From Candidatus Zixiibacteriota bacterium (GTDB lineage Bacteria > Zixibacteria > MSB-5A5 > GN15 > JAAZOE01), in the NCBI GenBank assembly GCA_030668485.1, contig DAOUTW010000008.1:30957-94956 (forward strand): DNA of 64,000 nt. Reading direction: 5' to 3'. The position numbers and the translations under genes are program-made. Of this stretch, positions 3,266 through 40,988 are shown piece after piece; positions within the stretch are counted from its first letter, which is position 1; the number at the start of each line of letters is the position of its first letter. Below the pieces are notes generated by a model, which worked only from the letters and a program-made list of their open reading frames with translations, ran no database searches and was not told the DNA's origin.

Positions 3266-3877
3266 ATGAAAATTGTCGAAACTTATTCCCACCTCAATGG
3301 ATTGGAATTTTTGCTTGTGCATAAGAAGAAATTATGGGGAGAAATAAAAACAGTTATAAAAAATGTCGATGCACGCGCCTGCAAGACTAAAATATCAAAA
3401 GAGAAAACCAAAAAAGGAAAACGTCTCTTTAGCCCGGTTGCGATGAATTCGGAATTCAAGCGTCTTCTGCAAAAATCGCAATGGGAGGAGAGTAGAGTAA
3501 GCTATTGGGTAACAAAAAGCGAAAAGCTAATTAGAAAGACACTGTCTATGCCTTCAGACGAGCAAAAGAAGGAAATTGTTGATGCGGGTGAAATTCCATA
3601 TTTTAGCTATAATCAGACCGATTTTGTCAAGGATAGAGTAGCACTGGAAGTGCAATTCGGTAAATACTCCTTTGTCGCATACGATCTTTTTGTTAAACAT
3701 CTTGCTTTTTATATAGGTGATAAAATAGACGTTGGAATTGAGTTGCTTCCCATGAAGGAACTTTCGTCACAAATGAGTTCTGGTGTCCCATATTATGAGG
3801 GGGAACTTTATAACGTGATCCGACAAGGTCGGGGTGTTCCTGCTGTACCTCTTGTAATTTTGGGAATCAAGCCATAG
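3266..3877 (+). CDS. Type II restriction endonuclease, BglII/BstYI-like
   Basis: Pattern DRVALEVQFGKYSFVAYDLF...DVGIELLPM resembles the catalytic core of the BglII/BstYI family; 42 bp downstream of the methyltransferase. Confidence 0.7.
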   Translation: MKIVETYSHLNGLEFLLVHKKKLWGEIKTVIKNVDARACKTKISKEKTKKGKRLFSPVAMNSEFKRLLQKSQWEESRVSYWVTKSEKLIRKTLSMPSDEQKKEIVDAGEIPYFSYNQTDFVKDRVALEVQFGKYSFVAYDLFVKHLAFYIGDKIDVGIELLPMKELSSQMSSGVPYYEGELYNVIRQGRGVPAVPLVILGIKP

Positions 3878-7027: not shown

Positions 7028-7774
7028 ATGAAAAATATTGCAAAAATCCTACCGGTTCTCGTGCTATTTCTTGTTTCCGCCTCTATGACAGCAGAACCTC
7101 CCGACCAGGATAATAGTGGTTGCCCCATGCACCAGGCCGCCGATAAAGGTTTCAAATTGCTCGACGAACTGCACCAGGTGATGGTCCCGGCCTGGCATGA
7201 AGCCTACCCGGCCAAAAACTATGTCGCCCTGGGTGAGGCGATTGCCAAATTCGATGCCATGATTCCGAAAGTAAAAGGGATGGCTCATACTTTCAAAACC
7301 ATCGAGCGCGAGGAACATTTCAATACCGCTCGGAACCGGTTTGTCGAGCTGGTCGGCAGAGGTAAGGCAATCAAGGGTACGGCGAATAACGATGCTCTCT
7401 ATGCCCTCTTCCCCGATCTTCATACCAGGTTTAAAGAAATGGCCTACTATCTGCTCCCTCTCGATTTTCCCGAATTTAATTCCCTGCGAATCGTCGTCGA
7501 TTTGATGATTGATACCCATCTCAAGAACAAAGACTACAAGGCGATTGTGACCTCACTGGAGGCTCTCAAAATAAAAAACGAGATGCTTCAGAAGGTGATT
7601 TTGCCTGAAGACCTGACATCGGTGGAAAAGAAGGCGGCAGCCGATATCGGTGAGATCGACAACATGTGTCGTGAATTGGAAGCCGCCAGCGGAGGGTTCA
7701 GCACCAAACTAATAGACGACTACCTGGGCAAACTGAAAATTCTTTGCGATAAGTTTGAACAGAACTATATTTAG
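7028..7774 (+). CDS. Secreted helical protein of unknown function
   Basis: ATG at 7028 followed by signal peptide (MKNIAKILPVLVLFLVSASMTA). Confidence 0.65.
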   Translation: MKNIAKILPVLVLFLVSASMTAEPPDQDNSGCPMHQAADKGFKLLDELHQVMVPAWHEAYPAKNYVALGEAIAKFDAMIPKVKGMAHTFKTIEREEHFNTARNRFVELVGRGKAIKGTANNDALYALFPDLHTRFKEMAYYLLPLDFPEFNSLRIVVDLMIDTHLKNKDYKAIVTSLEALKIKNEMLQKVILPEDLTSVEKKAAADIGEIDNMCRELEAASGGFSTKLIDDYLGKLKILCDKFEQNYI

Positions 7775-13897: not shown

Positions 13898-14262
13898 AAC
13901 AATCCTCCTTATTATGGGTTAGCACACCTGCGATAAGCGATATTGCCAATTATCGGTTAGCGAAACTTATTCGGTTTTCAAATGATTACCTGACCAGGAA
14001 TATATATCCCGGTCCGTACTACTATTCAATCGCATCGCAAAGATTTTGATAGTGATTATAATCCAGATGCAATACCGTACACAAAATCTCTTGATAACGC
14101 CAATGTATAAGAATCTTAATCTGTTGTCAATTTTTTAATTCGATGGATATCGGAGTACAAACAAACCCACCCGACGTAGTCCGCTGTTGCGAACAAACTC
14201 TGGGCGGGGTACTCGGTTCCGTCCAATCGTAGAGTTTCAATCATTCATAAAGCAAGAACCCG

Positions 14263-14390
14263 ATCATTGCGAGGAGTGAGACCTTCGCAACGCGGGGGTC
14301 GAATGACGAAGCAATCTATCGTTTGATGATCCACGCAGTTACCTTATGATTATTATAGTTGAAGGAACAAAACCCGGATCAAGGTCCGGG
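14263..14390. repeat. Dispersed repeat 'CATTGCGAGGAGTGAG..GAATGACGAAGCAATCTAT', copy R1
   Basis: Similar to 14519-14680 and 15640-15800. Confidence 0.85.
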
Positions 14391-14393
14391 GTA

Positions 14394-14523
14394 CACGCTG
14401 GGATTGATTCCCTTGTAGAGAAGTTGGGGTGCCCCATCTCTTTAGAGGTGGGAATTTGAGATTTATCTAATTGCCAATGATTATTCTTGTAACCCTGCGT
14501 CTAAAGACGCAGGCCACCCGTGC
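14394..14523. repeat. 130-bp interspersed repeat, copy 2
   Basis: One mismatch against 9363-9492. Confidence 0.9.
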
Positions 14524-14680
14524 CAACCACAAAAATAGAATCCGGTCATTGCGAGGAATGAGGCCTACGCACCGCGGGGGTCGAATGACGAAGCAATCTA
14601 TAATGCGATCATCCTCGCAGTCACCGGATGGCTGTTATAATTGCAGGCAAAGAACCCGGACCAAGGTCCGGGCCACGATG
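14519..14680. repeat. Dispersed repeat copy R2
   Basis: Shares CCAACCACAAAAATAGAATCCGGTCATTGCGAGGAATGAGGCCTACGCACCGCG with R3. Confidence 0.88.
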
Positions 14681-14815
14681 GTTAATAGTCCCGGGCACCC
14701 GGCCACCATTCTGGTGGGGTACAAAGTCGCCTACCCCGCCAACGGCGGGGCGATTTAAACGTGACATCTTCTCCGCACGTCCTTATTATAGTATTAGTTC
14801 AGGGAGGTGTGGGGT

Positions 14816-15529
14816 ATGTCAAACAATTTTCGCAGTCTTGCTTTTCTATCGTGCATTTTTGCTATTCTAAGCATATTGGGGCCAGTCAATTCTCACAGCA
14901 GCAAAATGTTCAGTGGAACTATTGTCCTATTTCAGATAGACGAAAACAGTCGCATCTTTTGGTCTGTTGATCGCAACTTACCGGAATTACTTATTTCTGA
15001 CAGCATCATAAGAATTCCTGAAACACCATATATAAATTTTAGCGGCTTGCGAAGCCTTATTCACGAATTGATTCCTGATCGCAGACGCATAGCTATCATA
15101 ATCGTTCCTCATCCAAATTCGCACTTTATGGTTACCGATAAAATACTCAAGGTTATCAATCTAGTGGAAATGGAGGTGAATCAAAGCCGCGCGCAATTAA
15201 TTGGCCTGCCATTCGACAGCCTTCCGCAGCGCGATAAATTCAAACTTCTCCATGAATTGTGGCGATGGCAAGATCGTGACACCCGTATCATGCAAAAAGC
15301 TTATGCAGCTAACAAAATATTGATTTTCAGACAATCGCCCACTGCCGAGGAAAACACATTCATATTCAGATACGAAAGCAGCTATTGGAAAAACGAGAGG
15401 GACAGCCTTGTTCTTTATCCTCTCACAACAGCCAAACCCGGAATTGGCATCCCACCGCCGATTTCGGATGATGATGAAATTGATTTTGGGCCCATTGAAC
15501 TAAGTCCCCGGCCGCTGAAGAAAAAATAG
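14816..15529 (+). CDS. Hypothetical secreted protein between repeats
   Basis: AGGGAGGTG Shine-Dalgarno before ATG 14816; N-terminal hydrophobic segment. Confidence 0.55.
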   Translation: MSNNFRSLAFLSCIFAILSILGPVNSHSSKMFSGTIVLFQIDENSRIFWSVDRNLPELLISDSIIRIPETPYINFSGLRSLIHELIPDRRRIAIIIVPHPNSHFMVTDKILKVINLVEMEVNQSRAQLIGLPFDSLPQRDKFKLLHELWRWQDRDTRIMQKAYAANKILIFRQSPTAEENTFIFRYESSYWKNERDSLVLYPLTTAKPGIGIPPPISDDDEIDFGPIELSPRPLKKK

Positions 15530-15607
15530 GACGTGAGCAGCAGCGTGAATCGTTTCGTTTAATGGAGGGATTATGAAGTTTATCTTTGACTACTTTATTG
15601 ATCTTGC

Positions 15608-15800
15608 ATCCCTGCGTCCAAAGATGACAGGCCACGCGTGCCAACCACAAAAATAGAATCCGGTCATTGCGAGGAATGAGGCCTACGCACCGCGTGGGTC
15701 GAATGACGAAGCAATCTATCGCGTGATGATCCTCGCAGTTATCTTAAGATTGTTATAATTGCAGGCAAAGAACCCGGACCGAGGTCCGGGGCACACGGGT
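15608..15800. repeat. Dispersed compound repeat copy R3
   Basis: CCCTGCGTC..CAGGCCAC hairpin remnant, CATTGCGAGG module and CCCGGACC-GA-GGTCCGGG hairpin, same order as around R2. Confidence 0.88.
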
Positions 15801-34208: not shown

Positions 34209-34583
34209 TTGGGATTTTTCAAAAATATATTCAACCGGCCCCCCAAACCGGGTAAACCGCGTCCGGTGACCGACGCCACGTTCGATCAGGAAGTCCTCAA
34301 TTCCGATGTGCCGGTCGTGATCGATTTTTGGTCGCCGACCTGCCGACCCTGCCAGGTGATGGCAGGGCTCCTAAACGAGATCGGACCCGATTTTGCCGGG
34401 CGGGTTAATATTTTCAAGTTGAATGTCGCTCAGAATCCGGAGACGGCGGCACGATTTGAGATCAGAAGCGTGCCGACGCTGGTATTTATAATTGGCGAAA
34501 CGGTGGTCGATACGGTTGTGGGATTATTACCGCTGATGCCGTTGACGCAAAAGCTGGAAGATCTGGCGCGGAAGCGCCGGTAA
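34209..34583 (+). CDS. Thioredoxin-like protein (TTG start)
   Basis: VIDFWSPTCRPCQVMAGLLNEI and SVPTLVFI; start inferred by family length. Confidence 0.85.
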   Translation: MGFFKNIFNRPPKPGKPRPVTDATFDQEVLNSDVPVVIDFWSPTCRPCQVMAGLLNEIGPDFAGRVNIFKLNVAQNPETAARFEIRSVPTLVFIIGETVVDTVVGLLPLMPLTQKLEDLARKRR

Positions 34584-34618
34584 ATCGGTTCCGGTTATCC
34601 CCCGAGGGTATTCAGATT

Positions 34619-35169
34619 GGTGGCCCACCCCAGCTTGCTGGGGTGGGTTTATATTGACATAAGTACATACATTATTTATAAAATAGCCTTGACCAAGCTT
34701 AAGCATTTTGATCATCTTGGCACAGCCCGTTTTATCACTTTCTCATGCTTTCACTATCATCGACTATTGAAGGACGAGGTGGGGAGATGAATCTTGGTCC
34801 AGTAATAGGCAAAATCAAGGGCCAATCCGGACGGAAAATAATTACCGCATGGAAGAAATATCATCCTGGTAAACTCTCAAGATTGGCTATTATTAGAGAT
34901 GGTAAACCTCGTTATGCGTTTTGGCAGCGGCGGTGTTATGATCATAATTGCCGGACGGTGGAGGCCGTAAGAGAAAAGATTAATTATTGTCATATGAATC
35001 CAGTCAAGGCCGGAATGGTTTCAGATCCTGCCGATTGGCCATGGTCCAGTTATTATTGGTATCACGGAAAACGGGATTCAATTGTTGTTATAGATGATAT
35101 TGAATTGTAGTATTAAAGAGATATGAACCCACCTTAAATCCGCCAAAGCCGAATTTCAAGTGGGCCACC
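34619..35169 (+). mobile_element. REP-bounded fossil RAYT element
   Basis: 10-bp terminal inverted repeats GGTGGCCCAC/GTGGGCCACC, hairpins at both ends, RAYT remnant inside, flanked by ~107-bp direct duplication. Confidence 0.8.
34689..35110 (+). pseudogene. REP-associated tyrosine transposase (RAYT/Y1_Tnp) remnant, internally deleted and frameshifted
   Basis: Frame 1 (34689-34790): LTKLKHFDHLGTARFITFSCFHYHRLLKDE; frame 2 (34787-35110): MNLGPVIGKIKGQSGRKI...FWQRRCYDHNCRTVEAVREKINYCHMNPVKAGMVSDPADWPWSSYYWY. Confidence 0.85.
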
Positions 35170-35252
35170 GGTGGTTGTGGGATTATTGCCGCTGATGCCG
35201 TTGACGCAAAAGCTGGAAGACCTGGCGCGGAAGCGCCGGTAAGCAGGGCCGG

Positions 35253-35453
35253 TTATTCCTGAAGGGCATTCAAATCGTCAACAAATTTCCGGATATCGTC
35301 ATCGCCAAACCCCTTTTCTCTGGCCGCTTCCTCAATCGTGCCCCAGATCGGTTCGCCGCAGCGGATGCAGCGAAGACCAGCCCGGCTGAGGTATGTTACC
35401 GCAGCCGGAATCTTTTCCACCAGTTCTTCAATTGAGGTATCTTTCGATATCAT
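35253..35453 (-). CDS. DUF1858-type small protein
   Basis: SIEELVEKIPAAVTYLSRAGLRCIRCGEPIWGTIEEAAREKGF. Confidence 0.8.
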   Translation of the reverse strand: MISKDTSIEELVEKIPAAVTYLSRAGLRCIRCGEPIWGTIEEAAREKGFGDDDIRKFVDDLNALQE

Positions 35454-39001: not shown

Positions 39002-39328
39002 TTCTCTTGTTTTCGTAGCCCCAAGATAGTCAAAAATCGTAATTTGTCAAATGATTCCATGCCGCTATAATAGCCGTATTTATAAACTTAAACAGGCCTC
39101 ACTTCTTCCACGATTGGGTGAATAATTTGGGCCGCCCATCAAGTTTGCTCAGTGAAGCTCCAGCTAGCCATCTTAAGAAACCCGGAGCAGAACTCCGGGC
39201 CACGCGGCCAGGTACATATACTAGTCAACTGGTCCCGGGCACCCGGCGGCTTGTCAGGTTGATGCACCCTTCATACTTCAGGACACGCGAGGACATACAC
39301 TAACCATAAAATATAGCCTGACGAAGTG

Positions 39329-40012
39329 CTATTCCCTGACAATATACTCCAAATCTTCTTCTCTGGATGTCGGCAGTTTTACCAGTATCTCCTGAGTTTT
39401 ACTTTCCCCGCACCAGGTAACAGACAGCTGGAGCGTATCTTCATGGATCAACTCGCCAGCGAGTTTTTCTACTGGTGCAATAAGAATCGATCGAGTATAT
39501 AGAAACAGAGAAGTATCTGCAGTCCTTAAGATATAAACTTTGTCTATCCGAGTGCTGTCGTAATAGACCAAACGGTTCCCATTCGATTCTATGGCGTAGG
39601 GAATTGTATCGCATTCGAAAGGATCATCAGAAGAACCCATATCGAAGGCTATTGTGCCCAAACTTCTCATCGGAACACGTAGCATATAGTGTACTCGGTA
39701 GGATGATAATCCCTCTATTATGCTCTCTTTTAGCAGCAATAGGTCATTATCTATAAAATTGCCGCAGATATCATGGGGTCCCTGGATTTCAAGAAGCTTT
39801 GATTTTTTGAATTGATAACTTTCTGTCGACTCCACATACACGCTGAGTATATATGCATCAAAAGCAGACGGATTGAGGCGGCTGACAGTCACCTTAAAAG
39901 AATCATTCTCTATCGTCCGAACAGTTTCTGTGCAGCCAATCAACACGGTAAAATAAATGATTAACCCGGCCACGCAGATGGCTCTCAGACATATATTTAG
40001 AAGTGCCATCAT
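39329..40012 (-). CDS. Putative lipoprotein, paralogue 1
   Basis: Lipobox LIGC; close similarity to 40122-40808. Confidence 0.7.
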   Translation of the reverse strand: MMALLNICLRAICVAGLIIYFTVLIGCTETVRTIENDSFKVTVSRLNPSAFDAYILSVYVESTESYQFKKSKLLEIQGPHDICGNFIDNDLLLLKESIIEGLSSYRVHYMLRVPMRSLGTIAFDMGSSDDPFECDTIPYAIESNGNRLVYYDSTRIDKVYILRTADTSLFLYTRSILIAPVEKLAGELIHEDTLQLSVTWCGESKTQEILVKLPTSREEDLEYIVRE

Positions 40013-40121
40013 GGACAGTTCTCCTTCTTATCATACAAGTCAATACCCTTTTGTATATGGCCGGTGGCCCGCCCCTTGGGCGGGGTACTCATGTAAGCGG
40101 CACCCGGCACTCGACTACAAG

Positions 40122-40808
40122 CTACTCTATGACGATATATTCCAAATCCTCTTCTATGGATGTCGGCAATTTCACCAGTATATCTTGAGCTTTATCTTCC
40201 CCGCACCAGGTAACCGATAGGCGGAGCGTGTCTTCATGAATCAACTCGCCGTCGAGTCTGTCCACCGGCGCAATACGAATAACTCCGGTATGCCGAGTTT
40301 TTGCCGTGTCGACAATTTTTACAACATATACCCTATCGAGCCAAGTACGTTCAATAGATGCCCGGCGGTTGCCAGAATATTCTATGGAATAGGGGAGAGA
40401 GTCATTACTTGTAAATGGATAGAAGTACTCATCGGAGTTCATCTCAATTGTACCAATACATTCCATCGGAACTCGTATTAAAAAATCCAATCGAAAAGCA
40501 GGAAAAGGAGATGCATATGGTTCTTTAAGGACTAAAAGGTCGCCGCTTAAAAACCCTCCCTCGAGGTCATTCGGCCCTTGGATCTTACAAAGTTTCGTTT
40601 TATGAAATTGATTATCGCCTTTTTGCTCCAGATACACGCTCAGTATATATGAATCAAAGGCCGATGGGTTGAGGCATCTTACTATCACCCTAAACGCGTC
40701 GTTTTCTATTGTTCGGACAGTTTTCGTGCATCCGCCAAACCCGATGGCGGCAAAGATCATTCCGAGCACGCAGATGCGGGTCAAATATTTGATTAGAAAC
40801 GCCATCAT
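40122..40808 (-). CDS. Putative lipoprotein, paralogue 2
   Basis: Lipobox FGGC; shares TVRTIENDxFxV..LNPSAFDxYILSVYxE and the C-terminus with paralogue 1. Confidence 0.7.
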   Translation of the reverse strand: MMAFLIKYLTRICVLGMIFAAIGFGGCTKTVRTIENDAFRVIVRCLNPSAFDSYILSVYLEQKGDNQFHKTKLCKIQGPNDLEGGFLSGDLLVLKEPYASPFPAFRLDFLIRVPMECIGTIEMNSDEYFYPFTSNDSLPYSIEYSGNRRASIERTWLDRVYVVKIVDTAKTRHTGVIRIAPVDRLDGELIHEDTLRLSVTWCGEDKAQDILVKLPTSIEEDLEYIVIE

Positions 40809-40988
40809 GGACAGTTATCCTCTCTATCATACAAGTCAATACCCTTCTGTATATGGCCGGTGGCCCGCCCCTTGGGGCAGGTTCCAGCTTTTTGGGTACG
40901 CTTTCATCATTGACAATTTCCGTTTAAACCAAGCAGGAACGTACCGCAAGCGATTTTACACACCAATCTTTATGATCGACACCCCCCC

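Follow-up and report, generated by a model that had tools for sequence, protein, structure and literature searches.

A window of 64,000 nucleotides from the genome of a Candidatus Zixiibacteriota bacterium contains, at the junction of two convergent genes, a REP-bounded element with the remains of a gene for a REP-associated tyrosine transposase (RAYT), lying between two direct copies of the same host DNA. The question raised by this locus is how the two copies arose, and a preliminary description had offered two answers, an insertion that duplicated a long stretch of its target or a tandem duplication that was already in place. The analysis presented here supports insertion and disfavors the tandem route, although the latter is not formally excluded at the window. 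It is likely that the window holds a decayed mobile RAYT/REP element (a REPtron) inserted at the convergent junction, and that the insertion itself created the duplication of about 105 bp.

The anatomy of the element is shown directly, and the claim that a 551-bp, REP-bounded, broken RAYT element occupies positions 34619-35169 (+ strand) with direct target copies on both sides held when the sequence was read. The element starts at 34619 with GGTGGCCCACCCCAGCTTGCTGGGGTGGG, an opening motif also written GGTGGCCCAC, and terminates at 35169 with GTGGGCCACC. Its left REP (34619-34647, + strand) consists of a GTGG head and the hairpin CCCACCCCAGC-TT-GCTGGGGTGGG; further copies of this REP type are dispersed through the genome in modest number (contigs C52, C110 and C129, and an array in contig C55). 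The right REP (35128-35169, - strand) is inverted, forms a longer imperfect hairpin that includes the terminal GTGGGCCACC, and is conserved in the two intact relatives of the element, one on contig C55 of the same genome and one on contig C722 of genome G003. The RAYT remnant between them (34683-35110, + strand; longest open frame 34745-35110) is supported by its match to the NCBIfam profile NF047646 and by alignments, and comprises N-terminal and C-terminal parts. A three-way alignment with the C55 and C722 units identifies the element as a deletion derivative, with 81% and 77% identity to the C55 unit in two blocks. Relative to the intact C55 copy, approximately 110 bp including the HUH motif are missing and the region of the catalytic tyrosine is kept; the same loss is seen in the alignment with both units. 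Since the HUH-encoding segment is gone, the element is no longer autonomous, and because the first half is deleted the remnant scores only 60.6 bits against NF047646 (cut-off 80), covering profile positions 68-146 of 146.

The duplicated stretch covers the convergent 3' ends of two genes, one for a thioredoxin and one DUF1858-like. The left copy (34514-34618) completes the thioredoxin gene (34209-34583, + strand, start codon uncertain; an ORF matching Pfam PF00085 with 77.2 bits) and carries a decayed DUF1858 tail. The right copy (35173-35276) carries an orphan thioredoxin tail together with the functional 3' end of the DUF1858-like gene (35253-35453, - strand; an ORF matching PF08984 with 31.0 bits, just under the cut-off of 32.2). 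This division of the two genes between the copies is as the preliminary description had it. Its left-copy start at 34511 was 3 nt too generous, as positions 34511-34513 mismatch and the match begins at 34514. Its statement that the first 70 bp differ at only two synonymous sites also held: positions 34514-34583 and 35173-35242 are identical, in direct orientation, at 68 of 70 sites, and both differences fall at third codon positions of the thioredoxin frame. The full pair (34514-34617 and 35173-35275) is 87.5% identical over 104 columns (E ~6e-29). Divergence between the copies is uneven: the thioredoxin tail differs at 2 of 70 sites, the DUF1858 tail at about 11 of 35 (p = 8e-5), although each copy holds one orphan tail. 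The unevenness is unexplained and counts against insertion with duplication.

The family to which the element belongs is a known one. The intact proteins from C55, from contig C103 of the same genome and from locus L147 exceed the NF047646 cut-off, and intact proteins score 23-40 bits against the IS200/IS605 TnpA model NF033573, below its cut-off of 55. Intact relatives carry the HUH motif and a tyrosine that aligns to Y115 of E. coli RayT, and an inverted REP pair (GT(A/G)G head plus hairpin) flanks the gene in the window, C55 and C722 units. Relatives recovered by protein pattern were nearly all from Candidatus Zixiibacteriota, where they occur in 119 of 135 genomes, with 12 matches in the source genome. 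Phage records and viral contigs yielded no RAYT relatives. RAYTs on plasmids from other phyla were accompanied by REP arrays only or by no repeat, a point against the main reading.

The preliminary description had suggested a search of the genome for other elements with such ends and long flanking repeats, and family members with repeats of this kind were found both in the same genome and elsewhere in the phylum. On contig C103, an intact RAYT lies between the copies of a 138-bp direct repeat, which are identical at 137 of 138 positions; the sequence occurs exactly twice genome-wide. Unique, non-palindromic flanking direct repeats were present at 13 of 145 Zixibacteria RAYT loci, compared to 2 of 385 control windows that lacked a RAYT, resembled the loci in geometry and were screened with the same fixed filter set (Fisher p = 2e-6). 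The p value is merely descriptive, because the filters were set after the first cases had been seen; in an earlier control, none of 151 shifted windows contained such a repeat. REPs, BIMEs and dispersed repeats were removed from the list by test and by inspection. Hand inspection retained 12 of the 13 loci, with duplications of 37-197 bp; L266, which contains REP sequence, was not counted, and L163 was kept among the positives only as uncertain. The retained duplications include those of L152 (37 bp), L049 (the same locus as L259; 39 bp, 38/39 identical), L173 (59 bp, perhaps ~75 bp as judged from a sister genome), L147 (60 bp), L316 (76 bp, 78% identical), L328 (96 bp, 99% identical), L181 (101 bp; 2714-2814 and 3642-3742), L201 (124 bp) and L062 (197 bp; 1206-1402 and 2227-2423). 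One case sits in a single-contig chromosome (genome G008), which, together with the divergence between copies, argues against an assembly artefact. The recurrence of long, unique flanking duplications in this phylum is thus shown, and it is likely that the RAYT/REP units of Zixibacteria are mobile and insert with target duplications that are long and variable in length.

The preliminary description had also held that copies of the element without flanking duplications would count against its reading, and such copies were seen in part: no duplication of this kind was detected at 133 of the 145 RAYT loci, and the solo GGTGGCCCAC REPs of the source genome have no long flanking duplications. Two of the positive loci are weaker than the rest. 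Third codon positions account for most of the differences between the copies of L062 (12 of 16) and of L181 (11 of 14), and for 26 of 33 over the four coding cases pooled; no difference falls at a second position in either locus or in the pooled set. As neutral decay of an orphan copy would not produce a third-position bias, L062 and L181 were given less weight. Both of their copies look as if they had been under selection, and it is possible that diverged paralogues or allele exchange are involved.

Several other repeats were considered and rejected. The repeat of L184/L135 (G003:C755) is dispersed, with 20 matching loci among those examined, and L092 and window positions 14255-15797 were likewise judged to be dispersed repeats. 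In the latter region, other REP types and a small ORF region lie interspersed among three copies of a ~140-bp repeat of the CATTGCGAGGA..GAATGACGAAGCAATC type. L190 is a strong palindrome (z ~ -6) without an informative empty site, the 33-bp repeat of L145 is itself a REP, and the identical 141-bp contig ends of G003:C935 are probably a circular-contig artefact. L165/L129, L146, L148, L132, L266, L347 and L297 are REP/BIME arrays or tandem element remnants; in L297 (G080:C10), a 152-bp direct repeat (878-1029 and 1632-1783, 98% identical) has REPs on both sides and flanks a RAYT, forming a locally duplicated composite REP unit. Elsewhere in the window, positions 39328-40866 contain imperfect tandem repeats ~795 bp apart and 73-81% identical in blocks, probably a duplicated gene. 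REP arrays also occur near contig ends in the source genome (locus L068 on C55, 3577-4734, with a 147-bp tandem unit in C55, and the ends of C110, locus L069), and assembly breaks may fall at arrays of this type. A separate observation concerns L087 (G003:C722, 7341-7613), where a 115-bp inverted REP doublet without a transposase gene (7407-7521) lies between direct repeats of ~60-90 bp, suggesting the possibility that non-autonomous REP doublets insert with long duplications as well.

An empty site holding one copy of the target had been named in the preliminary description as support for insertion with duplication. None could be demonstrated for the window insertion, because the thioredoxin-DUF1858 junction is not preserved among the relatives searched. 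One-copy, element-free sites were shown instead at three sibling loci in same-genus genomes, and these belong to sibling elements rather than to the window insertion. At L201 (G023:C215), a broken RAYT lies in the 5' end of pth, and in G035 a single copy connects the upstream flank to the downstream gene without interruption (L201 897-1068 matches L209 2219-2048, and L201 1653-3000 matches L209 2148-816). At L147 (G088), positions 800-2906 and 3549-3751 align to overlapping stretches of L226 in G036, which implies one copy of ~57 bp. At L173 (G083), G015 has one copy and no element, with the downstream flank aligning only a few bases past the copy; the insertion is also present in G024. In both L147 and L201, the two copies agree with each other at bases where the sister genome differs, and the duplication therefore postdates the split. 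L328 likewise yielded no empty site, as the relatives found do not share its gene order.

The coding cases have in common that one copy keeps each gene complete. Gene 3' ends are duplicated in the window, L147, L152 and L049, and 5' ends in L201, L316, L062 and L181, while the L328 duplication spans the junction of two tandem genes and each copy completes one of them. As duplication of a gene end leaves the gene intact, such insertions survive selection; the sparing of genes is accordingly taken, by inference, to reflect selection among insertions and not targeting.

As to whether the duplication formed on insertion, the main rival is a tandem duplication that came first, with the element later inserting at the junction of the copies and making no duplication itself. 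Tandem repeats arise commonly in bacteria, the window has no available empty site, and the third-position-biased differences in L062 and L181 would fit older functional duplicates. However, the element would have had to hit the junction exactly on some ten independent occasions, same-genus genomes carry one copy and not two, and similar repeats are rare in the controls (2/385). A relative with the tandem duplication but without the element, which the preliminary description would have taken as refutation, was not found, and prior tandem duplication is considered unlikely. It is also unlikely that the copies came from two diverged homologous molecules and were never identical, the element having either bridged these molecules or arrived through recombination with a related allele. 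The third-position-biased divergence (L062, L181 and the pooled coding cases) and the unevenness with which the copies of the window and of L201 have diverged along their length speak for such an origin; the near-identity of the copies in C103, L049 and L328 speaks against it, as do the bases that the copies of L147 and L201 share to the exclusion of the sister genome.

As to how the duplication forms, the main rival is hairpin slippage: a one-strand insertion in the manner of IS200/IS605, with the duplication arising later, or during replication of the element, by template switching or slippage past the hairpin ends. The hairpin ends are strong, the lengths vary widely (37-197 bp), up to ~80 nt of filler lies on the right side in some cases, and tandem repeats made of REPINs and their flanks have been described (PMC3116915). 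On the other hand, a one-step duplication reaching both ends of the element is most simply obtained as a joining product, and the solo REPs of the source genome lack such duplications. Slippage remains possible, though it is held to be rather unlikely.

The alternative to slippage is that the duplication results from processing of the two inverted ends on opposite strands, a reading that is inferred and that we hold only tentatively, with the balance tilting slightly against it. RAYTs cut the REP and not the inverted REP, on single strands, leaving 5'-phosphotyrosine and 3'-OH ends (PMC8266576). This strand specificity is known for the E. coli and Stenotrophomonas enzymes (PMC8266576) and is carried over here. 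If it applies, cleavage at one of the inverted REP ends would fall on the top strand and at the other on the bottom strand. The 5' ends so released would each attach to a 3'-OH in the target, one on either strand, with the two target nicks lying tens to about two hundred bases from each other. Where the 3' ends overlap, filling of the gaps would produce a long duplication whose length varies; with the reverse stagger, in which they do not, target sequence would be deleted. The model thus predicts that duplication lengths vary, that many insertions lack a duplication, and that some delete part of the target. In most cases, the duplication starts or ends within a few bases of a REP, which speaks for insertion with duplication. 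On the left it reaches to ~0-11 nt from the REP in most cases (26 nt in L152); on the right, the copy either abuts the REP or begins as much as ~80 nt beyond it. Right-hand gaps of 17 to 80 nt in several cases count against insertion with duplication, as does the lack, judged by eye, of a consistent cleavage or target dinucleotide.

The likeness to described RAYT/TnpA-REP REPtrons (Nunvar 2010, PMC2817692; Corneloup 2021, PMC8266576) lies in the NF047646 family, the HUH motif with the catalytic tyrosine, and the inverted, GTGG/GTAG-headed end hairpins. Described RAYTs are mostly single-copy, whereas the Zixibacteria units show insertions, duplications of 37-197 bp and empty sites; the 2021 paper reported no evidence of tnpA-REP mobility (PMC8266576). 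IS200/IS605 elements (IS608, ISDra2) share a related Y1 HUH transposase and hairpin ends, but their ends are processed on one strand and they make no larger target duplications (PMC2817692), a trait not met here, given long duplications at 12 inspected loci and same-genus single-copy sites at three, and the ends of the Zixibacteria units are inverted. REPINs and BIMEs (Bertels and Rainey 2011, PMC3116915) are similar in being inverted, non-autonomous REP doublets that are sometimes in tandem with their flanks; however, REPIN clusters repeat the REPIN together with its flanks, and here one element lies between two copies of unique host DNA. The IS1202 family (PMC10132070) is also relevant. Its duplications, at about 24-29 bp, are unusually long for a bacterial insertion sequence, with DDE chemistry and a narrow length range, in contrast to the HUH enzyme and the longer, variable duplications of the present elements. 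In the literature searched, which lacked most subscription papers, nothing was found on target duplications made by RAYT or REP elements. The element is thus of a known kind, and its insertion footprint is new and mechanistically informative.

These loci are footprints of RAYT insertion accompanied by empty sites, and a supposedly immobile family appears to move. The chemistry is constrained by a duplication that is both long and variable in length, which is hard to obtain from the one-strand route of IS200/IS605. A bolder reading, which at present we find rather less than convincing, is that Zixibacteria RAYTs are active transposons and not domesticated, using an undescribed HUH route that would process each inverted end on a different strand and join the two to the target at nicks with a wide stagger. 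If the opposite-strand route is true, it would produce duplications far longer than is usual for bacterial DNA transposons. The loci also show how a gene can stay complete despite an insertion at its end, and they name a phylum and particular elements in which RAYT transposition is directly testable.
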